Virus record (IMG/VR): IMGVR_UViG_3300032294_001736
Location: 1-21,761 of that record
DNA from: a virus
Direction: 5' to 3' (one strand)
Length of the DNA stretch: 21,761 nt
In this document: piece after piece, positions 326 to 21,101 of the stretch
Layout of the letters: every line of letters begins with the position of its first letter
Numbering within the stretch: position 1 is the stretch's first letter
The notes under the pieces: generated by a model
What the model saw: the letters and a program-made list of their open reading frames with translations, nothing else
What the model was told of the DNA's origin: nothing
The model's database searches: none
Translations under genes and position numbers: made by a program

Positions 326-2116
326 ATGCCAGCGGCCAGAAAAATTCCCCTTCCCATTGCGCCGGGGCAAATCCTCAGTCAGACCGACTATGAGGCTGAG
401 GGCCGCTACACGGTATGCGATCATGTGCGCTTCAAGGACGGGCAGCCCGAAAAGATAGGCGGCTGGGTTCAGTGGAATCTGGCGGGGCAGGGCGTCACGC
501 CAATGTGCCGGTCAATACTCGTCTGGATGGATTTTAACTACAACATCTGGCACGCCTTCGGAACGTCAAGCCGGTTGTGGGTTTATGACCAGAACGCGGC
601 GCGCACCAACATCACGCCGTTTGTGGCAACCGGCACGCTCTCCAATCCATTTTCCACAACCAACGGCTCCACCTCCGTCACGGTGGCGCACACTGGCCAT
701 GGATTGGCTGTTGGCCAGTTTGTGATTTTTTGGGGAGCGACAGCGGTCGGCGGCATCACAATAGCGGGGGAATACACAGTCACAACCCTGATCGACGCCA
801 ACAGCTACACCATCACTCACGCAAGCGCCGCAACCTCGACGGCGGGACCGGGCGGCGGCGCATCGGTGTCGTATTACTACGAACTGGCGCCGGGCAATGT
901 CAATGTGACGGCGGGCGGCGGCTGGGGCATTGGTACGTGGGGCTCTGGAACCTGGGGCACAATCCGCGGCTCTAATACCTATCTGCAATATCAGCGGTAC
1001 TGGTCCCTTGACCGTTATGGGCAGGACATCCTTGCCATGCCAACGGGCGGCGGGCTCTACCGTTGGCAGCGCAACACGGCAAACAGAGCGGCGGCAGTGG
1101 CCAATGCGCCAACGCAAGGCCAGTTCATGTTCGTGACCTCCGAGCGCATTGTGGTTGTGCTCGGCGCTGACAATGACCTGATGCTGATGAAGTGGTGCGA
1201 CGACGACGACCCAACAGTGTGGACGCCAGCCGACACCAATACAGCCAACTTGCGCCGCCTGCAGGAAGGAACCCGGCTTGTCGCTGGCGCAAGGCTTGCG
1301 CAGGGCGTCAATCTCGTGTGGTCAGACACGTCGGTCTATCTGATGCAGTTCACCGCCAACAACAGCGTGTACTCGACGCGTGCAATCGCCAGCAATTGCG
1401 GGCTGATCGGACCGGGGGCATTCACGGTGGTTGATGGCGCGGCGTTCTGGATGAGCAACAGCACGTTCTATGTGTATAGCGGCCAACTGTCTGTGATCCC
1501 GCGCGCACCTGAGATTGAGGCCATATTCGCGGAGATGAACAATACGCAGCGGCCGAAAGTCACCTGCCACTTCAACCCGACTTTCCGTGAAATCTGGTGG
1601 CTCTATCCTTCTGCCGGCAGCGCCGAGCCTGATCGGTATGTCATGGTCAACATCGACTCGTTCGATTGGGTGACGGGCACCATGGACCGCACGGTGTTCG
1701 GCGCGCGAATCCTGGCTGGCAATTACGAGCCGTTGGCGGTTGACCAGGCAGGCACTATCTACCAGCACGAAGTTGGCGTTGACGCTGACGGGCTGGCTCT
1801 TGGCTGGGAAATCGAGACTGGCTTCTTCGACATCGAAAACGGCAACGCGGGCGTCAACATCGACGGGTACATTCCGGATTTTGCGCGGCAGACCGGCTCC
1901 ATCACCATCACGGTTTCATCCAAGGATATGCCAGAGGACACGGCCACGCTGGATACCGTGACCAAGACGATTGCCGTTGGCGATACGATTACCGATCTTC
2001 GCCATTTCGGCCGTCAGTGCAAGATCAGGTTCGAACAACAGGTTGTCGGCGGTGATTTCCGGCTTGGCGGGCATCGCCTTGAGGTGGCCGGAACCGCCAC
2101 CAACAGGCACGACTAG
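326..2116 (+). CDS. Phage structural protein, probable tail/nozzle or DNA-stabilisation type
   Basis: 596 aa, starting at an ATG preceded by CTGGAG. The N-terminus has a pattern that recurs in podovirus-like structural proteins: PLPIAPGQ, then GRYTVCDHVRFKDGQPEKIGGW (read here as separate motifs GRYTVCDHVRF and DGQPEKIGGW), then repeated aromatic beta-rich segments. Residues about 107-175 look like a small inserted beta domain (TVAHTGHGLAVGQFVIFWG, later GEYTVTTL). No signal peptide or TM segment is seen. The rest is beta-strand-rich, as expected for a tail tube, nozzle or head-completion component. Its position just after a tail-fibre gene and before ejection-type proteins supports a virion role. 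P22 gp10-like stabilisation or tubular tail protein are alternatives; the exact part cannot be decided from sequence alone. Confidence 0.7.
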   Translation: MPAARKIPLPIAPGQILSQTDYEAEGRYTVCDHVRFKDGQPEKIGGWVQWNLAGQGVTPMCRSILVWMDFNYNIWHAFGTSSRLWVYDQNAARTNITPFVATGTLSNPFSTTNGSTSVTVAHTGHGLAVGQFVIFWGATAVGGITIAGEYTVTTLIDANSYTITHASAATSTAGPGGGASVSYYYELAPGNVNVTAGGGWGIGTWGSGTWGTIRGSNTYLQYQRYWSLDRYGQDILAMPTGGGLYRWQRNTANRAAAVANAPTQGQFMFVTSERIVVVLGADNDLMLMKWCDDDDPTVWTPADTNTANLRRLQEGTRLVAGARLAQGVNLVWSDTSVYLMQFTANNSVYSTRAIASNCGLIGPGAFTVVDGAAFWMSNSTFYVYSGQLSVIPRAPEIEAIFAEMNNTQRPKVTCHFNPTFREIWWLYPSAGSAEPDRYVMVNIDSFDWVTGTMDRTVFGARILAGNYEPLAVDQAGTIYQHEVGVDADGLALGWEIETGFFDIENGNAGVNIDGYIPDFARQTGSITITVSSKDMPEDTATLDTVTKTIAVGDTITDLRHFGRQCKIRFEQQVVGGDFRLGGHRLEVAGTATNRHD

Positions 2117-3237: not shown

Positions 3238-3283
3238 CGCAAAGGCTTTTAGGCCAAGCCGTTCTTTTTAAGGATAAACACCG

Positions 3284-4090
3284 ATGCCAAAGACAACCAC
3301 CACCACGCAGCTTCCGGACTGGGTAAACAACGCATCGCAGAATAACTACAACATGGCGCAGAACATTGCGTCACGGCCCTACACGCCATACCCCTATCAG
3401 CGCCTTGCCGGGTTTACCGGCGACCAGACCGGCGCAATGTCCATGCTTAGGAATTTCGCGCCAAACGCGGCGGCCAATGCAGGGTCATTCAAGGCGCCGC
3501 GCATGATCGACAGCATTGGGGATGGTGGCGACGTCAAATCCTATATGTCGCCCTACATCGACAATGTGCTGAACCGCACCCAGGATCGCATCCGCCAGTC
3601 TACCAATGCCGCCAAGCAGTGGCAGTCGAACATGAGCGCGCATCAGGATGGCGCATTCGGTGACGCCCGGCATGGCATTGCCGACGCCATGATCGAAGAT
3701 CGCGGCGTGCAGCAGATGGGTGACGCGGCGGCGGAAGCCTATGCGCAGGCCTACAATGATGCGCAGGGCATGAGGCAATATGACATCGGGAACCTGTTCA
3801 ATGCCCAGGAAATGAACGCCGCCAAGCAGCGCGACCTTCTCGGATACATTGATGCGCTGTATCGCTCCGGCTCCAACCAGCAGAACCTTGACCAGCAGTC
3901 AATGACGCTCGGCTATGAGGATTTCTTGAGGCAGTTCAACTATCCGGCGGACCAGTTGAACTTGCTGATTTCTGGCCTGACCAACAGCCCTTATGCGCAA
4001 ACCGTAACCCAAAAGACGCCCAATCAGAACAATTCGCCATGGAACCAGGTTGCCGGGATTCTCGGCAGCGTGGCGTCAGCATTTCTGTAG
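3284..4090 (+). CDS. Probable internal virion / DNA-ejection-type protein
   Basis: 268 aa. The start ATG has AAGGAT 8 bases upstream (3270-3275). The N-terminus (QLPDWVNNASQNNYNMAQNI, then RPYTPYPYQRLAGFTGDQTGA) and the segment YMSPYIDNVLNRTQDRIRQS match, from memory, a protein type common in podoviruses near the ejection genes. The middle is strongly helical and rich in Ala, Gln and Asn (AAEAYAQAYNDAQGMRQ). The C-terminus, IAGIL/VASAFL-like, is short and hydrophobic. No catalytic motif is seen. The gene sits in a run of same-strand virion genes leading into the giant cargo gene, which fits a role in the internal core or DNA delivery. Confidence 0.65.
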   Translation: MPKTTTTTQLPDWVNNASQNNYNMAQNIASRPYTPYPYQRLAGFTGDQTGAMSMLRNFAPNAAANAGSFKAPRMIDSIGDGGDVKSYMSPYIDNVLNRTQDRIRQSTNAAKQWQSNMSAHQDGAFGDARHGIADAMIEDRGVQQMGDAAAEAYAQAYNDAQGMRQYDIGNLFNAQEMNAAKQRDLLGYIDALYRSGSNQQNLDQQSMTLGYEDFLRQFNYPADQLNLLISGLTNSPYAQTVTQKTPNQNNSPWNQVAGILGSVASAFL

Positions 4091-5742: not shown

Positions 5743-6540
5743 ATGTCCACCATCGACGATCTTATCAACACGCTCACGGCGCAAACCCAGGCCGCCATGG
5801 GCACCGACACATCGCCATGGCAGCAGGAACTGCTTGAGACCATCAACCCGGAAAAACAGCGCCGCCGCAACATCGCCAAGGCGATACAGCAGGCATCGCT
5901 TGCCATGGCACAAACGCGCGGCAGCGTCCTTGATGGCCTCTCGGCCGCTGCGGCAACTGGCGCCGGCTCCTACATCACCGGGCAGCAGGAGTCAGAGGAT
6001 TACGCCGCCAAGGTGAAGCAGGCCATAGCCCTTGATCAGACCAAACAGCAGGACAGGCGCATGGCCATGTTGCTGGACGCCATTGGGGTGAACCAGAAAC
6101 AGGAAGACAACGCGCTGGCCAAGGCTGAAAGTAAGGCCAAAACCGCATGGTACGAGCGCCGGGGCGTGGATACCGCTGACGGGTCGCTGTCTCCCGCGCA
6201 AGCCGCCACCAACAAGCGCTTTGCCTTTACTCAGCTGGGCAATTACGAAAGCGAACTCCGCCGAAACCTTGTCCCGGAAGATCAGATTCCAGGCCTTGTT
6301 CAACAAAAGAAGGCTGAGCTTGAGCAGGCGTTTGGCGTAAGCCTCGACGGCGCACAGTCCGCCGCTCCGCAAGTCGGCGCTGCCGATCCAAACGTCACGC
6401 AGTTTGACCTGATGACCAATGGCGGCGGCCAGTCGCCGGGCATCACAAGTGACGCTGGGACCGCCGATGGCATCACCGCGGTAAACCCGCAGACCGGCGA
6501 ACGCGTTGTTTACAGGAACGGTCAATGGCTTCCCCTCTGA
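5743..6540 (+). CDS. Helical phage protein ending in a GERVVYRNGQW motif
   Basis: 265 aa from the ATG at 5743. Mostly alpha-helical and Gln/Ala-rich: residues about 25-115 form long amphipathic helices (NIAKAIQQASLAMAQTRG, QQDRRMAMLLDAIG). The last 17 residues carry NPQTGERVVYRNGQWLPL, a short C-terminal motif seen in many phage virion-associated proteins. It overlaps the giant polyvalent gene by 16 bases, so the two are probably translated together. No TM segment or catalytic signature. A packaged internal protein or a partner of the giant protein is the best guess from context; no specific family is assigned. Confidence 0.65.
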   Translation: MSTIDDLINTLTAQTQAAMGTDTSPWQQELLETINPEKQRRRNIAKAIQQASLAMAQTRGSVLDGLSAAAATGAGSYITGQQESEDYAAKVKQAIALDQTKQQDRRMAMLLDAIGVNQKQEDNALAKAESKAKTAWYERRGVDTADGSLSPAQAATNKRFAFTQLGNYESELRRNLVPEDQIPGLVQQKKAELEQAFGVSLDGAQSAAPQVGAADPNVTQFDLMTNGGGQSPGITSDAGTADGITAVNPQTGERVVYRNGQWLPL

Positions 6541-9500
6541 GTTCCCTGCCGCCTGGCTTCGTTCTGGAGACGCCCCCGGACAGCGCCAGACCCGCGCGTC
6601 CAAAGGCTCCCGCCCCGCCGCCCGGATTTGTGCTTGAGCAGCAACCGCCGACATTTGAGACAGTGCCATCCGTGCCGTTGCGGCGGCAGCAAGAAACGGC
6701 CCCGCCGCCTGGCTTTGTTCTGAAACAGGAAAAAGAACCGGCGGCACTTGGCGTTGGCGACTACGCCAGCGAGTTTGGCGGCGCTACCGTTCGCGGCGCT
6801 GCCGGTACAACGGCGGGAATGTTGCGCGGAGCCAATGTTCTCACTACCGACTCGCCAGACGAAATCAGGCGCGCCGAGGATGGCATAAGCCGCCTCAAGA
6901 CCATGACTGCCGAGCAAGCCACGGAATTTATGCGTTCGCTTCCCGCTAGGTTGTCCCCAGCTGTTGCGTTCAACTATCAGGTCGCTATACGAAAATTGTG
7001 GGACGGCAAAACTGATGAGGCCAAAAGCTATCTTGACCAGGCGCGCCGCTACACAGACACAAGGCCCATTGAGCAGCAAGGCCTTTCCAAGGCTGCAGCA
7101 AACATTGAAGGCGCGGCCAACGAGGCTTTTCCTCAAGACCCGCGATTCCGCGGTTCTGTTACAAGCGATCTCGGACAGGGGTTTGGATCAACGGCGGCAT
7201 TCCTGCCCATCGGCCTGTTGACCGGCGGAACTGGCGTTGCCGTGGCTGGCGCGGCCGCTGGCGCCGATCAGGGCTACCAAGAAGCAATCCGCGACTTGGC
7301 TGCCCAGCGGCGCGAAGATCGTGGCGAGGCCTACAATTCAGGTCTTGGCGCCGAGGCGCAGGTCAAGGCGCTGCAGGCGGGCCGGTTGAGCGCGCTTCCC
7401 GGCGTGTCCGAAGTGGTGCCGGTCGAGACCTTCATTCAGCAGGCTCCGCGCTTCATCCCCGGCCTGCGCCCCATTGCCAACTCTCCGGCGTTCAAGCGAT
7501 TTGCCAAAGCGTTCGGCCGCATTGGCACTCAGGTTTTAGCGGAAGGCGGTCAGGAGGCGTTCCAGACATGGGCCGGGAACGTCATCAACCAGATTACCGT
7601 TGACCCATCGCAGGCCCTTGACGAAAACGTCCTATACAATTTTGCCATAGGCGGTGCGGTTGGGGGCGGTATGCAGGCCGCCATGGAAGGCTATGGCGCA
7701 ACGCGTGGCACCGGCGAACCACCTCCACCCTCCGCCCCTCCGCCTCCGCGCAACCGGACGGAACCCCGCCTATTCCCCGACGATCCGCCCGGCCCGCAAG
7801 CCGGTCCCGCCACCCCGCCGCCGCAACAGGCCGCGCCCCAGGCAGATCAGCCCGCCCCGGCACCGTCCGCGCCGTCAGCGCCACCCGCACCGCCCCCCGG
7901 CTTTGTTCTGGAGGACGCGCCGCCGTCTGGCATTGACCCGGGCGATGAGGGCTATCTGCTAGGCGCAGGCTACACGCCGGAGCAGATCGCCGACATGAAT
8001 GTGCCAGAACGCGCAGCGGCGGTCCAGGAAGCCCGCCAGCAGGGCGCGACCCCCGTTACCCCATCCGCCGCGCCGCCGCCGCCAGGGACCGCGCCAAGGG
8101 CGCCTAGGGGCACCCGGCAGGCAAAGGCGACCATTGAGACCGCCCAAGACCTTGAGCCGGTCAGGCCGGTGGTCAATCCGGAGCCGTCCGAGGCCCAGGC
8201 CAGAGCGGGCAACTACCAGAAAGCCCACGTCCGCATTCACGGCCTTGACGTGTCCATTGAGAACCCGCGCGGCTCAATCCGGCGCGGCCGGGATGAGGAT
8301 GGCCGGGATTGGGCATCGCCAGAGCTTCCCGCCGACTACGGCTACATCAAGCGAACCACGGGCAAGGACGGCGATCATGTGGACGTCTATATCGGCCCCA
8401 GCCCGGAATCAGACCGGGTTTTCGTCATTGACCAGCTCAACCTGAAAACCGGGAAATTCGACGAGCACAAGAGCGTCCTTGGCGCGTCATCGTTGGGGCA
8501 GGCGGTTGATCTGTATGTGAACTCCTTCGACAATCCCACGCTCAAGCGCATTGGCGACGTGACCGAAATGTCGGTTGACGAGTTTCGCCAGTGGGTGAAG
8601 GAAGGCCGGAACACCAAGCGCCCCGCCGCCAAGGCCGGGATCGGCACGGTGACGCCCAATCCGCCGGAAGCCCCTAGTGAAATCGCTGGCGCCCCGGACG
8701 CCATGCAAGCGGCGGGCCAGATGCCGGTTGCCGCACCGCAGCAAGAACCCGGATCATTACCTAATTCCGTTTCGAACCCAGCAGATTCAACGTTTCAGGC
8801 CCCTTTTGACCAGTTTTCGTCTGAAACTGAATTCCCGGTTATTCAGGCTGAATTACCGGATCAGCCGCAAATTCCCGCACCGCAGCAAGACGCGCCGCGG
8901 TATAACCCGACCACAATCAGCGGCGAGGTGGACGGCGCGCTCAAGCGCTACCTTGGCGGCAACGGCCCGCTGACGCCGGAAGCCTTCGCCAAATTTGCCA
9001 AGATCGACGTGTCCGAGGCTGGCAAGGCCCTCCAATATGCAGGGCTTCGCGGCGGCATCATCATTGACAAGAATGGCAACTGGCGCAGGCCCAGGACGTT
9101 CAAGGGCCCGGCCAACGTGCTGGACTTCATCGCCTCGATCGGCGGCATCAGGGACGTGACCGGCGAGCTTCGCGGCATGGACCTGCCCAAGATGACGCAA
9201 TTCGGGCCGGTGGTGCGCAAGAAGGGCCTTCACCCCGACAGGGTGCGCGAGCAGCTGATCGAAGCCGGCTACCTGTTTGAGCCGGGCCGGGGAACCGATC
9301 GCCAGCAGCAGACCACCGTTGCCGACGTTTACGACCTGATTTCCCAGCACATGAGCGGCCTTCAGGTGGTTGCCGCCGAGGATCAGGCCGAGGCCGAGGC
9401 CATCCGCGTTCAGAAACTGAACGAAAACATGCCGGATGATTGGCAGCCGCAGAACCAGGTGCGGGCACGCTTTGGCGCAGAAGTCTGGTCTGACATCGAG

Positions 9501-12500
9501 GAATTCTTTGCCCGGTCTGGAACCACCGAGGAATCGTGGGGACCGGACGAATTGCGCAACGCGGCGCGGCTGATCGCCGGGGGCATGGAGCCAGATGACG
9601 CCTTTGAGAGGGCCGCCATACAGTATCACGCCACGCTTGAGGATACGGAGGGCTTGGACCCGGCGCTTGAGGCGGCCTTCCAGAACGGAAACCCCAATGT
9701 TATGGTGGCGTTTGAGGACGTGCCATTTCCTGATTTGGAGACAGCAACCAATGCAGATCAGCAGCAAGGACCACAAGAAACGGGCGATGGCGCTGGCCCG
9801 GCTGGCACGGATCGCCTCGACGGAGCAGGGCAAGCAGTTGATGCTGACACAGCAGAAGAAGTTCGAAGCCCTGGCGCGCGTGGCGGCCAAGAGGGAGGCC
9901 GAGGGCAAGATGCCGGGCCGGTAAGCCCCGCCGCCGAACCCGGCGCCGATGGCAGGCCGCAGCTTGTGATCCCCGGCGCCGAGCAGGATGTCCGGGGCGC
10001 CATGCAGAATGCGGCGAAAGCGCCCCTCAAGTCCAACTCCCCGCAGAAGGGCATGGACATCGGCATGTTCGGCTCCGAGCGCGACCAGACGGACATCTTT
10101 GACAAGAGGCCGGAGGAGGTTGATCCGGCCGCCTCATCGCCAAAACCAGAAACCTATGGCGATTCCAACAAGTTCGTGACCAAGGACCGCGCCGCCGAAT
10201 TGCGCGAAAAGCTGAAGGCCAAGCTGAAGAACCAGGTTTCCTCTGGCATTGATCCGGAAATGCTGGCTCTAGGCGCGGAGTTGGCCGCGTACCACATTGA
10301 AGCTGGCGCGCGGCGGTTTTCCGATTTTGCCCGCGTTATTGCCGCTGACTTGGGCGCCACGATCAAACAGGTTCGCCCCTATCTCAGATCGTGGTACAAT
10401 GGCGCGCGGGACATGATGGAGGACGCCGGCCTTGATGTGGCCGGGATGGACTCGCCAGATGAGGTGAGGGCCGCCCTTGCGGCTCTTGATGGGCAGAATG
10501 ACAATGGATCGGCAATCCAGAATAACGGCAAGCCGCAACTTGCGTTGCAGCAGGACGAAAAATTCCACCCGCTTGTCACGGCTTTCGTCAACTACTTTTC
10601 GCAGCCAGACGCCGCATTCGACACGATCACAGAAGCGCGAAAATTTGCGGCCGAGCGTGGTTTTGTAGCAAATCCCGGCACTGCCGAGGCAAAGGACCTT
10701 GACGAAAAGGTCGAACTCGCCATTGTGCTGACCGCCCGCACGATCATTGGCGCGTCCAAGGCCCGGCCCGCCAAAACTGCGTACCGTCGCCTAGTCGATC
10801 TTTATAACCGCCAGCCCAATCTCGGCGTTCGCACGTCTGAAAGCATGGCGGATCAGGCATATTCAACTCCTGCGCCGCTTGCCTTCATTGCATCCCGTCT
10901 TGCCGGCGTGCCCGGGGCCAAGGACGTCTTGGAGCCAACCGCAGGCAACGGCATGCTGCTTATTGAAGCCAGTCCATCCAGGGCTACCGTCAACGAAATT
11001 AACGACCGCCGCGCTGAAGCGCTCAAGGCGCAAGGTTTTCGCGTCACACAGAAAGACGCCGCAACGGGCAGTCTTCGCAAGTCGGATTATCCAGTCGATT
11101 CCGTCATCGCCAATCCGCCGTTTGGCGCGGTCAAGGAATCGGACGGGTCATCCAAGACATTTGACGTTGATGGCTGGACCACAACGCAGATTGACCATGC
11201 GATTGCGCTGAACACGCTTAAGACCATGAAAGACGATGGCCGCGCCGTTCTGATTGTTGGCTCAGTCAAAGAGGGGTCCGAAAAAAGCCGGTCGGATGGC
11301 TACAACACAAAGCAAAAACGAGAGTTTTACTGGAGGCTCTATCAGGGATATAACGTCACCGATCACTTCACGGTTGCGGGCGATCTCTACAAGCGCCAGG
11401 GCGCTGCATGGCCGGTCGATGTCATTGTAATTGATGGCCGGTCAAAATCGGCGCGACCGCTTCCAGCCGTGGAACTGCCCAAGGTCTATGACACTTGGGA
11501 ATCGCTTGAGGAGAAGTTGAATGAAGCTCCCGCTCAATCTGAAACCGCAACCGGACCGGCGGTCGCCGGAAACGAGGTATCTCGACCTTCTGGCGTCGGT
11601 AATGTCTCAGAAGCTGGGACAGAATTGGAAGCCGGAAGCCGCCCAAATCAGCGCCCTGATGGTGCGGGAAGGCCTGCTTCCCCACAGTCCGCCGTTGGTG
11701 GACAAGGAACAGTTTTTGATGGAGGCGTTCAGCGAGAACCCGATGGTGTGGGAAAACAGCAATCTCCCGAACCTGATCGCGGCCAAATGGCGCCCGGAAA
11801 ACGCCCTGACGGCGACGGAGGTCGCAAAGCACCTGTTTCTGGCCGAGAGCGCGTAGCACAGGACGCCGAGTCCGCGCAGCAGCCCTATCGGCCCATGTCG
11901 GGCCAGACATCGCTTGACACCAAGATTCCAACTAACATGGCCGCCGCCGTCGAAGAGTCGCTGCAGGACTTGGCCGACCGCCACGGCGACCTTGATGCGT
12001 GGCTCGAAAATGAACTGGGCTACAAAAAGGGGCAAATCGGCAAGTATCTGGCCGCCGAACAAGTCGATGCCGTAGCGCTGGCCCTTGACAACGTGAAGAA
12101 GGAAGCCGCCTTCATCATTGGCGACCAGACAGGCATTGGCAAGGGTCGTGTTGTTGCCGCAGCATTGCGTTACGCCATGCGCCAAGGGCTTGTGCCGATC
12201 TTTGTCACGGAGAAGCCAAATCTCTACGGCGACATCATCAGAGACCTGAACGACATTGGCGTTCAGGAAATGCTTGGCCGCGACCTGCGCCCGTTTCTCA
12301 CCAATTCCGGCGAATCCATTCCCCTCGATGACGAGGCCGTGGCTTGGTACGACGAGGCGCAGCGCGCCAAGGTCGAAGGACAGCCGTCGCCGCCAAAGCG
12401 CGGCAAGTTCTTGCGCGCCAGCGGCGGCGACCTTCACAAGCGCCAGATGGCCGCGCTGCAGCAGGAAGGAACCGGCAAGGATTTTGACATCATTTTCACC

Positions 12501-15500
12501 ACCTACGACCAGATGAACACGGTCAAGGGGCAAACCACCGACCGCCGCCGGCTGGTGGACGGACTTGCGGGCCGCGCCTTCATCGTTCTGGACGAAAGCC
12601 ACAATGCAGGCGGAACGGAGCCCAACGAACGCGGCCCCAAAAATGCGCCGGAAAGCCGATCCGATTTTCTCAAGAACGTGACGACCAAGGCAAAGGCCGT
12701 CATGTTCTCGTCGGCCACTTACGCCAAGCGTCCAGGCGTCATGGCGCTTTATGCCCGCACCGACATGGGCAAGGCGGTTGACAAGCCAAGCATGCTCGGC
12801 GATCTCATCGCCAAGGGCGGCGTGCCCATGCAGCAAGTCGTAGCCTCTATGCTCGCCAAGGCTGGCCAGTACATCCGCCGCGAACGCTCTTTTGACGGCG
12901 TGTCCTACGACGTCGAGCCAGTTACGGTTGATCTTAAAGCCTATGAGGCGGTCTCGACATCTCTTGCAGCAATTGCCCGTTTCGACATTGAACTCAAAAA
13001 AAGCGATGTTTGGAGCGATGTAAAGGAGGGATTGAAAGGCCAGGCCGAGGCGGCGGCGATGGATCCCGGAACCGGCGAAGCGTCGGTCAACTCGACCAAT
13101 TTCACGTCCCTCATGCACAACATCGTCAACCAGATGCTGCTGGCAATTAAGGTCAATGCCGTGGCAGACCGGGCAATTCAGGCGCTACGCGAAAACGAAA
13201 AGCCGGTCATCACGGTTGCCAACACAATGGGCGCGTTCCTCAAGAGCTACGCCGAGGACAACGACATCAAGGCTGGCAACGGGGTAACGCTGTCGTTCCG
13301 AGATGTCCTGCTCCGTTACCTTGAGCGCACACTCCGCCTCACCGTAAAGCGGCCAGACGGCACCAAGTATCACGTCCAAATCCCGCTGTCCGCCCTGCCG
13401 CCAAGAATGCAGAAAGCCTACGAGGACGCGCGGAACCAGGTTGATCAGATTGACACGGCAAATCTGCCAATTTCGCCCATAGACTGGCTGCGTCATCGAC
13501 TTGCCAGGGCGGGATACCGCGTTGGAGAAATCACCGGCCGCAAGGAAATCCTTGACTACGCCGGTCCAGATAATGCGTCGTTCGCGTTGCGCAGCGATTC
13601 AGAGGTAAGCCCCGCTGGCCGTCGCGTGACAATCGACAAGTACAACCGCGGCGACCTTGATGCCATGATCTTAAACCGTGCGGGATCAACCGGACTCTCG
13701 CTGCATGCGTCTTCCAAGTTTAAGGACCGGCGCCGCCGCCGGATGATCATTGCGCAGGCCGAACTGAACATCGACGTTCACATGCAAATGCTGGGCCGCG
13801 TCCACCGCACCGGGCAGGTTGTACCGCCTGCCTTTGTGCAAGCCTATGCCGATGTTCCCGCCGAAGCCCGGCCCGCCGCTGTGCTGGCAAAAAAAATGGC
13901 ATCACTAAACGCCAACACAACAGCGTCTCGCAAGTCGGCATTTTCGGCGGATGACGGCGTTGATTTCCTGAACGAATACGGCGATCAGGTCGCCCGCGAG
14001 TTCTTGGCTGAAAATCCGGACTTCAACCAGCTGCTTGACGTCAGTCTCGACCCGGAAAAGGAAACCGCCCGCGAACTTACCGGAAGATTGCTTCTTCTCC
14101 CGGTTGCCGATCAGCGCCGCGTCATCGACGAGATTACCGCCCGCTACAAGACGCTGATTGCAAACCTGGACGCCATGGGCGAAAACGCCCTTGAGGCAAA
14201 AACCGTTGACCTGTCCGCCAAGACGGTTGGCCGCCAAGTGTTGCGCCCGTCTGAGGGCGAAAGCCCGTTTACGCAATCGGTCATCCTTGAGGAAGTTGAG
14301 GTCAGGTCAGATGGCAAAGCTCTGCCAATGCCAGAGATTGTCAACAAGGCCGCCGAGGCCTTAGGCGCAGGCAAGGTTTCTACCGACAACCCCGAGTCGG
14401 CGCTGAACGAAATCGCGCGCACCGCCGACAAGGTGCGCCAGACCTTTGCCAAGAAGTGGCTTGACGACTTTGACCGCATGGTCGCCGACGAACTCAAGAA
14501 CACCAAGAGCGACGACGTTCGCTCCGAACGCCGCGAGAAGCACACGGCAAACCGTCAGCGCTTTAACGACTTGCTTGATGTCGTAATGCCAGGGCGTCGC
14601 GTTACGGTGAGGCGCGCAACGGAAGACGGCGAGCCGATTATCGGCATTGTGATGAACGTCGCCCGGCGTGGCCAGACCGGCGCGACAGGAAATCCGCTTG
14701 CCCTCGGCGCATGGACGGCAGAGATTGCCATTGCCGACAACGCGCAGCGTATGCAAATCCCGTTTTCTTCAATGATTATATCGGGAGAGGCTTACGAGGC
14801 CAGTCGGGCGCGGATCATTGTCGGCGCCCCTGATTGGGCCATGGGGATCAAGCAAACCGTCGAAGCATTCGACAGGGCGCGACAGACCGGCAAAGAAAGG
14901 CGCCACATCGTCACCGGCAACATCTTAGCCGGATTTGACCAGACCAGCGGGCGCGGGCAAATCATCAACTACACCGACAACGAAGGAAATGTGAAGCCCG
15001 GCATTCTTATGGCCCGCAATTTTGACCCCGCCGCGTTCCTCAAGGAGCGCGCCGTCCGGTTCAAATCTGCCGATCAAGTGATTGCCTTCCTCAAGCAACT
15101 GCCGGCCGCAGAAATCATGTCGCACGACAACGTGATAACGGTGCGCGCCAGCGGCACGTCCTACGAGATTGAAATGCCAGCCTCAAGGCAAACTGGCGGC
15201 ATTTACTTTTTGAACCCCGAGGTTCGCCGGAGCGCGCGCGACCAGTTTACAAAAATCGGTTCTCGCATGCGCTATCGCACCGCGTCAGAGCGCGAAGCCC
15301 AAACCGTCCTAGACGCAATGATGCGCGTGGGCGCCGTGTTTCAAACGACCGAGAATCAAACGGCTGCTGAGGCAATTATTAATGGCGGCCCGCCCCAGGC
15401 CCCGCTTTCCTCCCGCCCGCCGCAGGGCACGATGCAATCCGCGCCATCCTCTCCCGTCCTGAACAGCTTCCGTTTCGCAATTTCAGACCGGCAGAGCCGC

Positions 15501-18398
15501 GAGCTGACCGCCGAAATCAACCAGATCGCGCAGCGCATTCTTGGCCGCAGACTGGCGGCGGTGAACGTGACGCGTAGCCTTCCCGGCGACGAGGACGCCT
15601 ATTTCGACCCCAATACCGGCGTGATCTACATTGCCCTGCAATCGGTGCTGGACCCTAGGTTCAACATCCGCCACGAGGCGGTTCACGCATTGCGGCAGGC
15701 GGGCGTCATGAGCCAGCAGGAATGGGCCGTCCTGTCCCGCATGGCCAAGACCCGGTGGATTGAGGAATACGGCATCCGCGAGCGCTATGGCGACCTGTAC
15801 CGGGAGCGATTTGACATTGCGCCGGACCAGCTCGAAGAACTGATGGTCGAGGAAGCCATTGCCGACGCCATGGCGCAGCACGCCATGAAGCCGCCCGCCG
15901 ATGACGTGGTGTCGCGCATTTTCCAGCGCGTGCGCCAATTCCTCCGGGCCGTGGCCAACATGCTGGCCGGGCGCGGGTTCACAACGCCAGAGCAAATCCT
16001 GTCCAGCATTGAAACCGGCGGCATGGCACAGCGCCGTCAGGGCACGGGGCAGGGCCGTGGCTTCCTGGTGCCGCAGAGGCAGGAGAGCAGGCAATCGCCG
16101 CTTTCGTCCGTTCCGCCTGACGACGGTGGAGCGGGTGGGCGTTTCTATCAGGCGCAGGCCGCAACGACCGCTGAAGATCGCGCCATGGCAGAGTTTGCCG
16201 GCAACATCAACCTGAGCAAGATTGACGCCGCAGAGGACATAAAAGACGTCCTTCGAGATGCGGCCGAAAAGGCCGACGGCTTCATTGCGGCCCGCCGTGG
16301 CGTGGTTTCCCACGAGCAGACAAAACAGCTTGCCGAGCAGCTCGGCATGTCGCTTGAGCAACTCCTCAAGAGAAAGTCTGGCCAGGCATTCAATGACCAT
16401 GAGGCATACGCCGCGCGGGCGATGCTGGAGAAATCCGCCGAGATCGTAAAGAAGGCTGCCGCCAGAGCAAAAAACACTACGTCGGACGTTGACCGGGCTT
16501 ATTTCGCTCGCGTGTTGACGCGGCACGCCGCCATTCAGGAACAGGTGTCCGGCATCGCCGCCGAGGCGGGCCGGGCCTTGAACCAGTTCAAGATGATGGT
16601 GGGCGCCGATTACCTTCGGGGCGTTGCCGAAATGCTGTCGGAGAAAACGTCTCGCGGGAACATGGGGCCGGAAGCCATCAGGGACATGGCGGAAATGATC
16701 GATTCGCTCGACACCCCAGGCCAGGTTGGGCGAATGGCGCGCGACATGTTCAAGCCGCGCTTCCTTGACATGATCCGCGAGTACTACATCAACTCGCTGC
16801 TTTCGGGCCCTGCGACACAAACCGTCAACTTCATGTCCAATATGCTGGTGGCGCTGAACCAGATACCCGAGACATTTGTGGCCGAACAGATTGGCAAGCT
16901 GCATGGCGGAGACAAGGTTTCCCGCGGCGAAACCATGGCCCGCGCGATTGGCCTTCTTGAGGGATCGCGCGAAGGCTTGCAGCTGGCATGGATGGCGCTC
17001 AAGACGGGTGAGCCGCAAAGCCCGGAAACGCAGTTTGACCAGCCCATGCAAAAGGCCATTCCCGGAATAGCGGGAGAGGTGATCCGGCTTCCGTCGCGGC
17101 TCATGATGAGTTCGGACGAGTTTTTCAAAGCGGTCAATTACCGCGCCGAGCTTACCGCAATTGCCGTTCGCATGGCGCAGGCGGAGGGCTTGGACGGCGA
17201 CGCGCTAGCCGATCGCATATTGGATTTGCGGAACAACCCGACTCCGGCGATGGTCCAACGGGCGGCGGCGGCTGGAAAATATCAGACGTTCCAGAACAAG
17301 CTGGGCACCAAAGGCCAGACCTTGATGCGGTTCCGAGAGTCCTGGCAATTGTGGTGGCTCCTGCCGTTTCTGCGCACCCCCATCAACATTCTCAAATACG
17401 CCGCAGAAAGAAGCCCCATCGGGCCGCTCCTCATGAGCGAGGTTCGCCAGAACTTGCGTGGCGAAAATGGCGGCGCCGCGCGTGATACGCAGATTGCCAG
17501 AATTGCGCTGGGAACCGTCATGCTTGCCGGAATGGGCGCCATTGTAATGTCCGGCATGGCGACTGGCGGCGGCTCCGATGATGAGCGTGAAAAAGGCGTG
17601 ATGCGCGCGGATGGCTGGCAGCCCTATAGCCTGAACATCGGCGGGAAATACTACAGCTACCTGCGGTTTGATCCATTCTCCCTGCACCTTGGCATTGTCT
17701 CCGACATGGTTGAATTGAGGAACAAGATCAGCAAGGGTGAGTATGAAAATCTCGGGTGGATGCTGATGGCTTCGATCATCAACAACGTGACCGACAAGAC
17801 ATGGCTGAAATCCGCCACTGAATTTTCGCGGATGACCATGGACCCGAAAGCGTACATGGAAAACTACCTGTCGCATCTGGCGTCTGGATTTGTGCCGAAC
17901 TTCCTTGCGCAGATAGCCAGGGCGAAAGACCCGTCATTCCGCGATGCCAGAGGGGTTTTGGACAAGATCAAAGAAAGGATTCCGGGCCTCAGGGAAACCC
18001 TGCCGCAACGCTACGACATTTTTGGCGAGCCCATCACCGGCGAAGGCAATGTTGGCCCGGACCTGTTTTCTCCTGTGTATGTCTCTACGCAGAAGAACAA
18101 CCCGATCGCGCGGGCCATGGTGGATGCCAAATATTTCCCCGGAAAGCCGCGCCGCCACATCAACGGCCACGACCTCACAACAGAGCAGTACGCGGAGTAC
18201 ACGCAGATTTCCGGCAAAGAAGCTGTGCGCAGGCTTGAGCGCATGGTAAAATCTCCGTCGTGGTCGCAGCGCAGCCAGGACTCCAAGGAACGGGTATTGA
18301 AGCGCGGCTATGATCAGGCGCGCGAGATTGCCAGAAAAACGCTGATGCGAAAACATCCAGAGTTGCGAGCCAAGGCGGAGCAGACGGCGGGCCAATGA
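6525..18398 (+). CDS. Giant polyvalent phage protein: PPase-like / DNA methyltransferase / SNO-type helicase / HExxH peptidase
   Basis: 3957 aa in one uninterrupted frame. The start ATG has AGGAA 6 bases upstream and overlaps the previous gene. Order of parts: three PPGFVL motifs in the first 67 residues and a fourth at 457-463; a Gly/Ala-rich hydrophobic segment (about 220-245); Pro-rich linker; PPase-like domain (562-694); conserved helical/winged-type segments (about 793-960); SGIDPE...AYHIEAGARRFSDFA segment (about 1211-1299); methyltransferase; helicase; metallopeptidase; long C-terminal region with hydrophobic stretches near 3605-3630 and 3661-3682. This architecture matches the polyvalent proteins described for phages and conjugative elements; P1 DarB is the best-studied relative, packaged and injected to counter restriction. 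That role here is inferred. In two linkers (9751-9924 and 11521-11856) codon bias leaves this frame. Whether the chain stays whole or is cleaved is unknown. Confidence 0.9.
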   Translation: MASPLSSLPPGFVLETPPDSARPARPKAPAPPPGFVLEQQPPTFETVPSVPLRRQQETAPPPGFVLKQEKEPAALGVGDYASEFGGATVRGAAGTTAGMLRGANVLTTDSPDEIRRAEDGISRLKTMTAEQATEFMRSLPARLSPAVAFNYQVAIRKLWDGKTDEAKSYLDQARRYTDTRPIEQQGLSKAAANIEGAANEAFPQDPRFRGSVTSDLGQGFGSTAAFLPIGLLTGGTGVAVAGAAAGADQGYQEAIRDLAAQRREDRGEAYNSGLGAEAQVKALQAGRLSALPGVSEVVPVETFIQQAPRFIPGLRPIANSPAFKRFAKAFGRIGTQVLAEGGQEAFQTWAGNVINQITVDPSQALDENVLYNFAIGGAVGGGMQAAMEGYGATRGTGEPPPPSAPPPPRNRTEPRLFPDDPPGPQAGPATPPPQQAAPQADQPAPAPSAPSAPPAPPPGFVLEDAPPSGIDPGDEGYLLGAGYTPEQIADMNVPERAAAVQEARQQGATPVTPSAAPPPPGTAPRAPRGTRQAKATIETAQDLEPVRPVVNPEPSEAQARAGNYQKAHVRIHGLDVSIENPRGSIRRGRDEDGRDWASPELPADYGYIKRTTGKDGDHVDVYIGPSPESDRVFVIDQLNLKTGKFDEHKSVLGASSLGQAVDLYVNSFDNPTLKRIGDVTEMSVDEFRQWVKEGRNTKRPAAKAGIGTVTPNPPEAPSEIAGAPDAMQAAGQMPVAAPQQEPGSLPNSVSNPADSTFQAPFDQFSSETEFPVIQAELPDQPQIPAPQQDAPRYNPTTISGEVDGALKRYLGGNGPLTPEAFAKFAKIDVSEAGKALQYAGLRGGIIIDKNGNWRRPRTFKGPANVLDFIASIGGIRDVTGELRGMDLPKMTQFGPVVRKKGLHPDRVREQLIEAGYLFEPGRGTDRQQQTTVADVYDLISQHMSGLQVVAAEDQAEAEAIRVQKLNENMPDDWQPQNQVRARFGAEVWSDIEEFFARSGTTEESWGPDELRNAARLIAGGMEPDDAFERAAIQYHATLEDTEGLDPALEAAFQNGNPNVMVAFEDVPFPDLETATNADQQQGPQETGDGAGPAGTDRLDGAGQAVDADTAEEVRSPGARGGQEGGRGQDAGPVSPAAEPGADGRPQLVIPGAEQDVRGAMQNAAKAPLKSNSPQKGMDIGMFGSERDQTDIFDKRPEEVDPAASSPKPETYGDSNKFVTKDRAAELREKLKAKLKNQVSSGIDPEMLALGAELAAYHIEAGARRFSDFARVIAADLGATIKQVRPYLRSWYNGARDMMEDAGLDVAGMDSPDEVRAALAALDGQNDNGSAIQNNGKPQLALQQDEKFHPLVTAFVNYFSQPDAAFDTITEARKFAAERGFVANPGTAEAKDLDEKVELAIVLTARTIIGASKARPAKTAYRRLVDLYNRQPNLGVRTSESMADQAYSTPAPLAFIASRLAGVPGAKDVLEPTAGNGMLLIEASPSRATVNEINDRRAEALKAQGFRVTQKDAATGSLRKSDYPVDSVIANPPFGAVKESDGSSKTFDVDGWTTTQIDHAIALNTLKTMKDDGRAVLIVGSVKEGSEKSRSDGYNTKQKREFYWRLYQGYNVTDHFTVAGDLYKRQGAAWPVDVIVIDGRSKSARPLPAVELPKVYDTWESLEEKLNEAPAQSETATGPAVAGNEVSRPSGVGNVSEAGTELEAGSRPNQRPDGAGRPASPQSAVGGQGTVFDGGVQREPDGVGKQQSPEPDRGQMAPGKRPDGDGGRKAPVSGRERVAQDAESAQQPYRPMSGQTSLDTKIPTNMAAAVEESLQDLADRHGDLDAWLENELGYKKGQIGKYLAAEQVDAVALALDNVKKEAAFIIGDQTGIGKGRVVAAALRYAMRQGLVPIFVTEKPNLYGDIIRDLNDIGVQEMLGRDLRPFLTNSGESIPLDDEAVAWYDEAQRAKVEGQPSPPKRGKFLRASGGDLHKRQMAALQQEGTGKDFDIIFTTYDQMNTVKGQTTDRRRLVDGLAGRAFIVLDESHNAGGTEPNERGPKNAPESRSDFLKNVTTKAKAVMFSSATYAKRPGVMALYARTDMGKAVDKPSMLGDLIAKGGVPMQQVVASMLAKAGQYIRRERSFDGVSYDVEPVTVDLKAYEAVSTSLAAIARFDIELKKSDVWSDVKEGLKGQAEAAAMDPGTGEASVNSTNFTSLMHNIVNQMLLAIKVNAVADRAIQALRENEKPVITVANTMGAFLKSYAEDNDIKAGNGVTLSFRDVLLRYLERTLRLTVKRPDGTKYHVQIPLSALPPRMQKAYEDARNQVDQIDTANLPISPIDWLRHRLARAGYRVGEITGRKEILDYAGPDNASFALRSDSEVSPAGRRVTIDKYNRGDLDAMILNRAGSTGLSLHASSKFKDRRRRRMIIAQAELNIDVHMQMLGRVHRTGQVVPPAFVQAYADVPAEARPAAVLAKKMASLNANTTASRKSAFSADDGVDFLNEYGDQVAREFLAENPDFNQLLDVSLDPEKETARELTGRLLLLPVADQRRVIDEITARYKTLIANLDAMGENALEAKTVDLSAKTVGRQVLRPSEGESPFTQSVILEEVEVRSDGKALPMPEIVNKAAEALGAGKVSTDNPESALNEIARTADKVRQTFAKKWLDDFDRMVADELKNTKSDDVRSERREKHTANRQRFNDLLDVVMPGRRVTVRRATEDGEPIIGIVMNVARRGQTGATGNPLALGAWTAEIAIADNAQRMQIPFSSMIISGEAYEASRARIIVGAPDWAMGIKQTVEAFDRARQTGKERRHIVTGNILAGFDQTSGRGQIINYTDNEGNVKPGILMARNFDPAAFLKERAVRFKSADQVIAFLKQLPAAEIMSHDNVITVRASGTSYEIEMPASRQTGGIYFLNPEVRRSARDQFTKIGSRMRYRTASEREAQTVLDAMMRVGAVFQTTENQTAAEAIINGGPPQAPLSSRPPQGTMQSAPSSPVLNSFRFAISDRQSRELTAEINQIAQRILGRRLAAVNVTRSLPGDEDAYFDPNTGVIYIALQSVLDPRFNIRHEAVHALRQAGVMSQQEWAVLSRMAKTRWIEEYGIRERYGDLYRERFDIAPDQLEELMVEEAIADAMAQHAMKPPADDVVSRIFQRVRQFLRAVANMLAGRGFTTPEQILSSIETGGMAQRRQGTGQGRGFLVPQRQESRQSPLSSVPPDDGGAGGRFYQAQAATTAEDRAMAEFAGNINLSKIDAAEDIKDVLRDAAEKADGFIAARRGVVSHEQTKQLAEQLGMSLEQLLKRKSGQAFNDHEAYAARAMLEKSAEIVKKAAARAKNTTSDVDRAYFARVLTRHAAIQEQVSGIAAEAGRALNQFKMMVGADYLRGVAEMLSEKTSRGNMGPEAIRDMAEMIDSLDTPGQVGRMARDMFKPRFLDMIREYYINSLLSGPATQTVNFMSNMLVALNQIPETFVAEQIGKLHGGDKVSRGETMARAIGLLEGSREGLQLAWMALKTGEPQSPETQFDQPMQKAIPGIAGEVIRLPSRLMMSSDEFFKAVNYRAELTAIAVRMAQAEGLDGDALADRILDLRNNPTPAMVQRAAAAGKYQTFQNKLGTKGQTLMRFRESWQLWWLLPFLRTPINILKYAAERSPIGPLLMSEVRQNLRGENGGAARDTQIARIALGTVMLAGMGAIVMSGMATGGGSDDEREKGVMRADGWQPYSLNIGGKYYSYLRFDPFSLHLGIVSDMVELRNKISKGEYENLGWMLMASIINNVTDKTWLKSATEFSRMTMDPKAYMENYLSHLASGFVPNFLAQIARAKDPSFRDARGVLDKIKERIPGLRETLPQRYDIFGEPITGEGNVGPDLFSPVYVSTQKNNPIARAMVDAKYFPGKPRRHINGHDLTTEQYAEYTQISGKEAVRRLERMVKSPSWSQRSQDSKERVLKRGYDQAREIARKTLMRKHPELRAKAEQTAGQ
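8208..8606 (+). other. Domain: inorganic-pyrophosphatase-like (residues about 562-694 of the giant protein)
   Basis: The segment starts NYQKAHVRIHGLDVSIENPR and contains DYGYIKRTTGKDGDHVDVYI, then FVIDQLN, FDEHKSVLG and EMSVDEFRQWV. DGDHVDV (D615, D617, D620) resembles the D-x-D-x-x-D metal-binding signature of soluble pyrophosphatases. The domain is known in phage polyvalent proteins; its substrate there is not established. Confidence 0.75.
9751..9924 (+). CDS. Nested out-of-frame small basic protein (57 aa) inside the giant gene
   Basis: The ATG at 9751 opens a +1 frame relative to the giant gene and ends at TAA 9922-9924. A possible Shine-Dalgarno TTGGAG lies at 9735-9740. The product is basic and helical (KKRAMALARLARIASTEQG, KKFEALARVAAKREAEGK). 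By hand count, 53 of 57 third codon positions are G or C in this frame, against 25 of 58 in the giant frame over the same bases. There the giant protein is a Gly/Asp/Gln/Ala linker. The codon bias indicates that this frame is, or was until recently, the one under coding selection. I do not recognise a family. It could be an expressed nested gene or the relic of a separate gene later overrun by the giant frame. Confidence 0.6.
   Translation: MQISSKDHKKRAMALARLARIASTEQGKQLMLTQQKKFEALARVAAKREAEGKMPGR
10560..11519 (+). other. Domain: N6-adenine DNA methyltransferase (residues about 1346-1665)
   Basis: SAM-binding motif I reads EPTAGNGMLL (E1470 onward) and the catalytic motif IV reads NPPF (1530-1533), the canonical N6-adenine methylase signature. 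The preceding segment (KLKNQVSSGIDPE, AYHIEAGARRFSDFA) is the conserved companion often found in front of such methylases in polyvalent proteins. Both key motifs are intact, so activity is plausible. Confidence 0.88.
11508..11516 (+). promoter_or_regulatory. Shine-Dalgarno of the nested gene at 11521
   Basis: GAGGAGAAG lies inside the giant coding sequence with its AGGAG core about 7 bases before the ATG at 11521. It is among the strongest ribosome sites in the window and is well placed only for the nested frame. An in-frame TGA (11518-11520) sits directly before the ATG. Confidence 0.65.
11521..11856 (+). CDS. Nested out-of-frame protein (111 aa) inside the giant gene, unknown function
   Basis: The ATG at 11521 has a strong Shine-Dalgarno 7 bases upstream and opens the +1 frame relative to the giant gene, ending at TAG 11854-11856. 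The product has normal protein composition with regular hydrophobic spacing (YLDLLASVMSQKLGQNWKP, ISALMVREGLLP, LPNLIAAKWRPENALTATEV). In the giant frame the same bases give a Gly/Pro/Arg/Glu linker between methyltransferase and helicase. By hand count, 88 of 111 third positions are G/C in this frame and only 44 of 112 in the giant frame; the rest of the giant gene is clearly GC3-rich. I therefore call it a real or very recently real gene. No TM segment or known motif is seen. Its placement suggests a link to the DNA-modification module, by inference only. Confidence 0.7.
   Translation: MKLPLNLKPQPDRRSPETRYLDLLASVMSQKLGQNWKPEAAQISALMVREGLLPHSPPLVDKEQFLMEAFSENPMVWENSNLPNLIAAKWRPENALTATEVAKHLFLAESA
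11880..14220 (+). other. Domain: strawberry-notch-type SF2 helicase (residues about 1786-2566)
   Basis: Walker A is GDQTGIGKGR (K1873), Walker B DESH (2023-2026), motif III SSAT (2062-2065), a motif V-like GSTGLSLHAS (from 2387) and motif VI GRVHRTGQ (2424-2431). The lead-in YRPMSGQTSL and LAAEQVDAVALAL are typical of the SNO family. All motifs are intact. It follows the methylase, the same order as in DarB-like antirestriction proteins. Confidence 0.88.
15462..15990 (+). other. Domain: zincin metallopeptidase, MPTase-PolyVal type (residues about 2980-3156)
   Basis: FDPNTGVIYIAL precedes RHEAVHALRQAG, an HExxH zinc site (H3050, E3051, H3054). Downstream EEAIADAMAQH supplies a likely third ligand (E3109 or E3110). 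Metallopeptidases of this kind are known parts of polyvalent proteins and have been proposed to process the polypeptide or attack host proteins. Confidence 0.8.
16180..18395 (+). other. Domain: C-terminal region of the type ending giant phage proteins (residues about 3219-3957)
   Basis: Starts with AEFAGNINLSKIDAAEDIKD, continues through a helical core (REYYINSLLSGPATQTVNFM) and two hydrophobic stretches (WQLWWLLPFLRTPINIL; IALGTVMLAGMGAIVMSGM). It then contains YLRFDPFSLHLGI and a basic tail. It resembles the large polyvalent-associated C-terminal domain sometimes labelled LPD38; that label is from memory. The hydrophobic stretches could contact the membrane during ejection. Confidence 0.6.
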
Positions 18399-18401
18399 CC
18401 C

Positions 18402-19046
18402 TTAACGCCACCACAGATAGTTGGCGCCAACATCAAGCCGTTCGGCGTCTTTTTGGGTCAGCCAGTAGATGCTTGTTGCCGGGGCTTGGAATTTCTTGAT
18501 GGCCTCGGTGGAATAGCCCATGCGCCAGTAGTAATTCTCCACCAGTGTGTTCCAGTAATCGACATCTGCGGAATCGTAGATTTCCTTGCCGTCCCTGATA
18601 ATCATCGTCCGGTGAAAGCCTATCTTCCACCCCTTGGCGATCCAGCGCTGCACGCCGCCCGCCCACACAATGGCGCAACCAGAGGCGCACATCCATTTGT
18701 CGGGGACATAGGTGCAGATTTCCTGACGGCGGATCATGTCGCCGATCATTATGGACCAGTAGGTCTGGCCGCCGGGACTGCGAAGGAACAGCCACCCGCC
18801 CTTGCGGTTGCCGATCAGTTTTGTTAGCTTCGTGTAGGTTTTCTCGGTGATGTCACCGTAAATCTCGTAGATCGGGTAATCGCCGCCTTGCAGCAGGGCA
18901 ACGCCGTCTCCCTTGCGCTCCTTGCGGAGCTTGAACCCAGGCTCGGCACGATCCGTACACATTGCCGGGCGGGCGCCATCAAGGGCAAACGCCGGGGCAG
19001 GAACCAAGGCCAACAGGACGGCCAGTACAAGCAGCTTCATCCGCAT
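18402..19046 (-). CDS. Secreted Clp-like (COG3904-type) periplasmic protein, probable moron
   Basis: 214 aa from an ATG at 19046 (the ATGs at 19040 and 19067 are alternatives; none has a clear Shine-Dalgarno). A clean signal peptide (MKLLVLAVLLALVPAPAFA) is followed by a region with the pattern of Clp/crotonase-fold periplasmic proteins: FLRSPGG, then CASGCAIVWAGG and IGFH. By analogy S122 would be the nucleophile and H145 the general base; the third residue is not obvious. It is the only minus-strand gene, stops three bases from the end of the convergent giant gene, and interrupts the run from virion to lysis genes. These are features of an autonomous accessory gene that could act in a lysogen. 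Its substrate is unknown. Confidence 0.75.
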   Translation of the reverse strand: MRMKLLVLAVLLALVPAPAFALDGARPAMCTDRAEPGFKLRKERKGDGVALLQGGDYPIYEIYGDITEKTYTKLTKLIGNRKGGWLFLRSPGGQTYWSIMIGDMIRRQEICTYVPDKWMCASGCAIVWAGGVQRWIAKGWKIGFHRTMIIRDGKEIYDSADVDYWNTLVENYYWRMGYSTEAIKKFQAPATSIYWLTQKDAERLDVGANYLWWR

Positions 19047-19116
19047 GGAACGGAACCGGTACGCCATCCGCGTGGAAAAATCCAGTACCAATTGCAACAA
19101 ACAAGGAACTGTCGAA

Positions 19117-20026: not shown

Positions 20027-20065
20027 CGCCAGGCTCCACCTTTCTGACAATCTGACGAGGTTTCC

Positions 20066-20314: not shown

Positions 20315-20427
20315 AAACCCTCTCCGGATACTTCATGATCCTGGTCGCCGTCGTCGCGGTCTGGCTTGAGGTTTTGCCCGACAGCGCAGCCCGCATCATC
20401 ACATCATGGATAGAGGCCCACAGATGA
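20311..20427 (+). CDS. 38-residue single-TM peptide in the lysis cassette
   Basis: The ATG at 20311 overlaps the stop of the preceding gene (ATGA at 20311-20314), and its own TGA (20425-20427) overlaps the endolysin ATG, again as ATGA. The peptide reads MKTLSGYFMILVAVVAVWLE and continues VLPDSAARIITSWIEAHR: one TM helix and a short amphipathic tail. The double overlap is the best evidence that it is translated. It could be a small holin, antiholin or regulator of the endolysin. Confidence 0.6.
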   Translation: MKTLSGYFMILVAVVAVWLEVLPDSAARIITSWIEAHR

Positions 20428-21101
20428 AAACCAATCGCGCAGGCATTGAACTTATCAAGGAATTTGAGGGGCTTCGCCTTACGGCCTACAAGTGCCCGGC
20501 GGGGGTATGGACCATCGGCTATGGCCACACCACGTCCGCAGGTCCGCCCGCCGTCAAGAGTGGCATGAAGATCACCGGCGAGCAGGCGTCTGAAATCCTT
20601 GTCACCGATCTTGTCACCTATGAGGCGGCGGTGATGAAAGCGCTGACCAGGTCGCCAACCGAGAACCAGTTCAGCGCCATGGTTTCGCTCTGCTACAACA
20701 TCGGGGCTGGCGCGTTCACGTCATCGACGGTGGTGAAAAGGTTCAATTCCGGTGACGCCGAGGGCGCGGCGGCCGCATTCCGCATGTGGAAGAAGGGCGG
20801 CGGCAAGGTGCTTCCCGGTCTGGTGCGCAGGCGCGAAGCCGAGATCGCGCTGTTCAATGCCGCCTCGAACCATATTGCCGACGCCGGCAAAAAGGCCGCG
20901 GTAACGGTCGAGACCACGCCCGCCCCGGCAGTGAAGGATTCCCCGGCACCAGCCCCAGCGCCTGCGGCAGCTCCAGCGCCGGATACCGAAACCGCCGCCC
21001 CGGTTGCGCCGTCCAAGGCGCTGGCGGGCGGTCTCATCGCCGCTTTGGCGGCACTTATCGCGGCTTTGGCCGCATGGATCATGAAAGGAGGCCAGCCATG
21101 A
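20424..21101 (+). CDS. Endolysin: GH24 lysozyme (muramidase) with C-terminal membrane anchor
   Basis: 225 aa from the ATG at 20424 (GAGG at 20413-20416); an upstream in-frame ATG at 20406 is less well placed. The protein cleaves the peptidoglycan glycan strand. The motif EGLRLTAYKCPAGVWTIGYG gives the catalytic spacing E-x8-C-x5-T (E15, C24, T30): cysteine stands where T4 lysozyme has aspartate, a known GH24 variant. NQFSAMVSLCYNIGAGAF and GLVRRREAEIALF are further family motifs. After about residue 150 a Pro/Ala-rich linker leads to a hydrophobic helix (about 199-220) ending in KGGQP. That C-terminal TM segment is unusual for an endolysin and implies tethering to the inner membrane. The start and stop both overlap neighbours as ATGA. 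Confidence 0.92.
   Translation: MKTNRAGIELIKEFEGLRLTAYKCPAGVWTIGYGHTTSAGPPAVKSGMKITGEQASEILVTDLVTYEAAVMKALTRSPTENQFSAMVSLCYNIGAGAFTSSTVVKRFNSGDAEGAAAAFRMWKKGGGKVLPGLVRRREAEIALFNAASNHIADAGKKAAVTVETTPAPAVKDSPAPAPAPAAAPAPDTETAAPVAPSKALAGGLIAALAALIAALAAWIMKGGQP
21083..21090 (+). promoter_or_regulatory. Strong Shine-Dalgarno for the holin at 21098
   Basis: AAAGGAGG lies within the last codons of the endolysin, 7 bases before the holin ATG. It is close to a perfect match to the anti-Shine-Dalgarno sequence, suggesting high or independently set expression of the holin. Confidence 0.7.

Follow-up and report, generated by a model that had tools for sequence, protein, structure and literature searches.

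Polyvalent proteins are giant multi-domain phage proteins, whose named domains include InPase, a dyad of an adenine methylase and a SWI2/SNF2-clade ATPase, and zincin, and in which a Strawberry-notch-type ATPase is present in a few instances (Iyer et al. 2017, PMC5512222). DarB of phage P1 is packaged (PMC9024508) and is part of an anti-restriction system that protects DNA (PMC5512222). DarB-like proteins also occur in podoviruses, i.e. in JC1 and other Bcep22-like phages (gp69) and in Parlo, where they are giants of 3,764-4,515 aa whose genes precede the lysis module. Of these, JC1 gp69, which comprises 4515 aa and carries LPD38 near its C-terminus, was found in virions with 51 peptides by mass spectrometry (PMC9144972). 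The virion RNA polymerase of phage N4 (gp50), which is ejected into the cell, consists of a membrane-type N-terminus, the enzyme, an HExxH subdomain and a large helical C-terminal domain (PMC12633501).

The protein described here is encoded in a 21,761-base IMG/VR virus record, a linear fragment that is referred to as the window (Table 1). DNA similar to the window was not found in the phage collection, and neither tRNA genes nor Rfam families were matched in it. The giant ORF is real, intact and conserved, and a Shine-Dalgarno-like AGGAAC (6514-6519) is located just 5' of its ATG. The first-pass annotation had listed PPase-like, methylase, helicase and peptidase domains with intact catalytic motifs; indeed, all named motifs could be located (DGDHVDV at residue 615, EPTAGNG at 1470, NPPF at 1530, GIGKGR at 1870, DESH at 2023, SSAT at 2062, GRVHRTGQ at 2424 and HEAVH at 3050), and the corresponding domains were identified as an InPase, a methylase, a Strawberry-notch ATPase and an HExxH zincin. 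As in other polyvalent proteins, several unrelated enzymatic or effector domains are thus united within one large polypeptide, and the gene lies beside virion and late genes, with a stabilisation protein, an ejection protein and an endolysin adjoining.

Table 1 Positions of the giant gene, its domains and its assigned neighbours in the window.
Feature	Position	Strand	Basis
Stabilisation / virion structural protein, upstream neighbour	326..2116	+	phrog_3287, E 1.1e-52
DNA ejection protein, upstream neighbour	3284..4090	+	phrog_4287, E 2.9e-12; 59% identity to L218 counterpart
Giant polyvalent protein gene	6525..18398	+	ATG start, 3957 aa, without internal stop
Hydrophobic Gly/Ala-rich N-terminal region, residues 76-397	6750..7715	+	phrog_2206, E 8e-8
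InPase domain, residues 556-692	8190..8600	+	PF18823, E 3.6e-46; acidic DGDxxD motif as DGDHVDV
LPDx helical module (~110 aa), residues 1211-1321	10155..10487	+	67% identity to Parlo DarB-like protein
N6-adenine methylase region, gamma-type, residues ~1355-1700	10587..11624	+	TP, EPTAGNG, NPPF
Strawberry-notch-type SF2 ATPase, residues 1846-2494	12060..14006	+	PF13872 and PF13871
Conserved post-ATPase region, residues ~2512-2858	14058..15098	+	profile found in most relatives
HExxH zincin domain, residues 3023-3165	15591..16019	+	HExxH and downstream Glu; model
Linker and C-terminus exchange point, residues ~3189-3205	16089..16139	+	similarity to L218 stops here
C-terminal carrier domain, internal-virion-protein-D type, residues ~3232-3955	16218..18389	+	sequence homology and fold
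Endolysin, downstream neighbour	20406..21101	+	phrog_7, E 3.1e-64

The left end of the window is the terminal part of a tail-fibre-like gene, which is followed by the stabilisation-type protein, the DNA ejection protein, low-complexity proteins, the giant gene, a reverse-strand ORF and the endolysin. The low-complexity proteins within this ejection cassette (2377-3237 and 4106-5731) are rich in Pro, Gly and Ser and have no PHROG match, but are partly kept in the nearest relative, L218 (61% identity over 96 aa and 28% over 186 aa). The reverse-strand ORF that separates the giant gene from the lysis genes (18402-19499, minus strand) contains an internal signal-peptide-like MKLLVLAVLLALVPAPAFA followed by SPGG and ASGC motifs; it has no PHROG match, and its last 191 residues have no Pfam match. 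The two motifs are reminiscent of periplasmic ClpP-fold proteins. Bcep22-like phages have reverse-strand hypothetical genes in the equivalent place (PMC9144972). Around the endolysin (19477-21758), small membrane-type ORFs are present that are possibly holins; the 82-aa and 169-aa ORFs near the endolysin matched no family.

Among the domains that precede the C-terminus, the N-terminal region matches the corresponding part of phage virion RNA polymerases; since residues 76-397 are rich in Ala and Gly, this match has to be read with caution. The region harbors a hydrophobic stretch at residues 220-247 and matched no phage by tblastn. Among solved structures, the one most closely related to the InPase domain is the C-terminal part of a phage portal protein (PDB 9b41, E 3.5e-26), in line with the fusion of InPase-type domains to portals described previously (PMC5512222). 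For LPDx, the sole PDB match was a designed helical protein without a qualifying stretch, which we judged to be due to chance. The methylase is weak in Pfam (N6_Mtase, 0.029 with the whole protein and 3.9e-4 with the segment) and is clear from homologues, since TP, EPT.GNG and NPPF are invariant in an alignment with Bacteroides phage BS-TP4 and Acinetobacter phage MD-2021a. The same alignment contains the ATPase motifs (TG.GKGR, DESH, SAT and an R..R.GQ-type element), and the ATPase itself consists of the Strawberry-notch pair AAA_34 (residues 1846-2136, E 5.4e-21) and Helicase_C_4 (residues 2332-2494, E 5.3e-22) in Pfam. DNA unwinding had been considered as one of its activities, which is not what would be expected, because ATPases of the SWI2/SNF2 clade are described to move along duplex DNA without separating its strands (PMC5512222). 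Pfam did not call the zincin domain; its HExxH residues and third Glu ligand (H202, E203, H206 and E262 in alignment A4) are invariant in nine relatives. The best PDB rows of the zincin model (pLDDT 77) reached Z 6-8 over 91-158 residues with an rmsd of 3.2-7.4, and the top rows were nearly all HExxH-type proteins such as IrrE and PPEP; the best Foldseek E-value was 0.04. Both the pyrophosphatase and the peptidase activity of the giant protein are therefore to be read as predicted.

The C-terminal ~720 residues share homology with internal virion protein D of T7-like phages (Autographiviridae) of Roseobacter, Pelagibacter, Synechococcus and other hosts (tblastn E 1e-39), and this homology spans most of the C-terminal domain. 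In ProddE, the respective gene is located between internal virion protein C and the tail fibre. The AlphaFold model of the C-terminus (pLDDT 78) matched internal virion proteins and ART- or large polyvalent proteins in BFVD (E about 1e-31), and nothing in the PDB at E<=0.001. PDB structural matches with Z up to 6.6 were unrelated helical proteins and were rejected. When the single sequence of T7 gp16 was compared with the C-terminal family by hhalign, nothing was found; the relatives share the gene position. As neither T7 gp16 nor a solved structure was matched, the putative ejection role is based on the annotation of the relatives and on gene position.

To this family belong proteins of different size and composition. 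In marine T7-like phages, internal virion protein D mostly comprises 1,100-1,500 aa, as compared to 3957 aa here. Used as a single-protein query against viral contigs, the C-terminus gave no match, while a DNA pattern for the DEFFKQ..YR motif collected 120 viral stretches, nearly all of them encoding the family; none of the members collected in this way carries an InPase, a methylase, an ATPase or the zincin type of the giant protein. In ctQWt234, a 1121-aa member without cargo is the last gene before the endolysin, the place that is occupied by the giant gene in the window, and in a 2040-aa member (L111:8612-14731, minus strand), the carrier domain is preceded by an ART-PolyVal domain. Further long members of ~2,000-2,300 aa (L119, L131 and L157) have N-terminal parts that are mostly without assignment; L119 carries DUF7831 (E 8e-36). 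In Caulobacter phage S2B, the full-length gene is directly preceded by ORFs (L013:706-2153, plus strand) that partly match the same domain and could possibly represent partial duplications of it.

The C-terminal virion-protein domain, which like the match of residues 76-397 was absent from the first-pass annotation, is the strongest evidence at the sequence level for a putative packaging of the giant protein. Because this tail segment is shared with known internal virion proteins, the protein is probably packaged and delivered together with the phage DNA. The notion of counter-restriction by a packaged protein is supported by the packaging documented for P1 DarB and JC1 gp69. Packaging is documented for such relatives only, and for the window protein itself packaging, processing and enzymatic activities are predicted.

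The protein was also compared with described systems. Bacteroides phage BS-TP4 gp3 (5391 aa) shares the order InPase, LPDx, methylase and Strawberry-notch ATPase with 30% identity over residues 1188-3058, and differs by its LPD38-type C-terminus. P1 DarB, which had been named as a known relative, turned out to be a partial one: its methylase is homologous (hhalign P 3e-7, HMM E 4e-8) and likewise precedes the ATPase, but the latter is SNF2-related (PF00176) and not of the AAA_34/Helicase_C_4 type (the window ATPase profile matched DarB with E 0.02), and neither the InPase nor the carrier was matched in DarB. In the DarB methylase (L009:10469-17236, minus strand), NVPF replaces the canonical NPPF. 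The JC1/Bcep22-like and Parlo proteins have an N-terminal lytic transglycosylase, unlike the window protein; in Parlo, the ATPase lies ahead of the methylase and LPD39 is present, whereas JC1 carries LPD38 and LPD3. The layout of N4 gp50 is similar, with RNA polymerase as the cargo. Comparison of the N4 C-terminal domain with the window C-terminus or with LPD38 was not significant, and the best match of the C-terminal family in this polymerase fell into the N4 N-terminal region (P 0.011).

Scans with the methylase-ATPase alignment retrieved 80 loci each from viral contigs and from bacterial genomes. Most of the viral loci are single ORFs of 3,300-7,200 aa with the same domain order. As tens of independent large ORFs repeat this order, some of them with an InPase ahead, the arrangement is far beyond chance. 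LPDx precedes the methylase in 39 cases, lies between methylase and ATPase in 4 and follows the ATPase in 2, and from these three positions we conclude that it is a mobile module. One giant ORF (L022:4064-15148, plus strand) stops 146 aa past the post-ATPase region, unlike its sisters, and is possibly truncated or frameshifted.

The nearest relative, L218, is encoded on contig JALHQC010000054.1 of a bacterial MAG. Its upstream genes are syntenic, their matched parts being 47-61% identical except for one with 28%, and an endolysin follows downstream. The giant protein of L218 shares 65% identity over residues 1350-3189 and 50% over residues 472-1094; InPase and zincin are present, and LPDx was not detected. 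The similarity ends at about residue 3205, in the linker just past the zincin, and the C-terminus of L218 is of the LPD38 type, which is common to 55 giants at the equivalent place (64 of 100 large ORFs by a looser count). The C-terminal carrier is thus exchangeable. In the window protein, the PF18857 (LPD38) profile did not match the C-terminus; the internal-virion-protein-D type was found in only three methylase-ATPase giants, i.e. the window protein, L025 and L219. The window, a linear fragment, might be a chimera joined at the exchange point, though L025 and L219 display a fusion of the same type. In a FastTree phylogeny of the methylase-ATPase core, the window protein and L218 are sisters (support 100) and the C-terminus type requires three changes; with only three labelled rows, this tree goes no further than showing that core and C-terminus type are not strictly co-inherited. 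An I..G.[IVM][GA].R element after the zincin is kept in position among the relatives. As a general processing site it was rejected, since 27 occurrences were observed over whole proteins with 19 expected, i.e. without clear enrichment.

When LPD38 was compared with the internal-virion-protein-D-type family by windowed hhalign, the best matches fell at collinear places with P 2e-4 to 5e-4, as compared to 0.04-0.05 for reversed controls, while the full-length comparison was not significant (P 0.05). These values give a hint that the two C-termini might be distantly akin. That both are interchangeable carriers of common descent, i.e. one ejection module with swapped cargos that is here fused to a translocase-methylase, is a tentative extension that we regard as rather doubtful. 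The kind of protein is known, its combination with an ejection-type tail is rare, and it is this carrier type that distinguishes the window protein within the polyvalent class. The main text of PMC5512222 contains no occurrence of internal virion proteins, and in the literature covered, mostly outside subscription journals, we found no report joining a polyvalent protein with an ejection protein, or an internal virion protein with a methylase.

Taken together, we consider it likely, with a probability of roughly 0.7, that the giant protein is a polyvalent protein packaged in the virions of a short-tailed (podovirus-like) phage, in which an exchangeable ejection carrier is combined with an enzyme cargo that protects the incoming DNA. 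Judging from homology and gene position, the helical C-terminal carrier would place the protein in the particle and take it across the cell envelope with the DNA, probably assisted by the hydrophobic N-terminal region. The methylase and the Strawberry-notch-type dsDNA translocase could then methylate the incoming genome and/or displace bound restriction enzymes, similar to what has been proposed for the DarB-type dyad, and the InPase might clear PPi or a related nucleotide. The zincin, located exactly between cargo and carrier, probably cuts the following linker, which would release the cargo.

The fusion of a dsDNA-translocase-type ATPase to a virion- or ejection-type domain would also be compatible with an entry motor, in which the carrier sits at the inner membrane, the ATPase pulls the phage DNA in and methylation is secondary; for T7, a transcription-independent ratcheting of the genome into the cell by gp16-C has been proposed (PMC8954989). 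We consider this unlikely, since the methylase always accompanies the ATPase in the large relatives, with its motifs intact, and the LPD38-bearing majority is without the internal-virion-protein-D-type domain. Alternatively, the methylase-ATPase could be a late intracellular enzyme outside the virion that modifies or remodels progeny DNA before packaging. In favour of this view, cyanobacterial genomes commonly encode methylase-ATPase proteins of ~2,000 aa that have no carrier domain and would not require packaging. The homology of the C-terminus to internal virion proteins, the location of the gene inside an ejection cassette and the presence of JC1 gp69 in virions (PMC9144972) speak against this reading, which appears quite improbable. 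An ejected protein that mainly hits the host chromosome, host proteins or alarmone-like nucleotides instead of protecting phage DNA is least probable, given that the DNA methylase-ATPase pair is the best-conserved core and that InPase and zincin, which were discussed as possible effectors (PMC5512222), are missing from many relatives.

The window protein bears on how giant polyvalent proteins enter the particle and the cell. The natural swap of the C-terminus between syntenic, 65%-identical proteins marks the boundary between carrier and cargo and opens the role of LPD38 to direct testing. If our reading of a packaged, DNA-protecting protein is true, counter-restriction enzymes would be tied to the DNA-ejection proteins of short-tailed phages; if the two carrier types are indeed akin, the genome could be modified during entry by a carrier-fused translocase-methylase.
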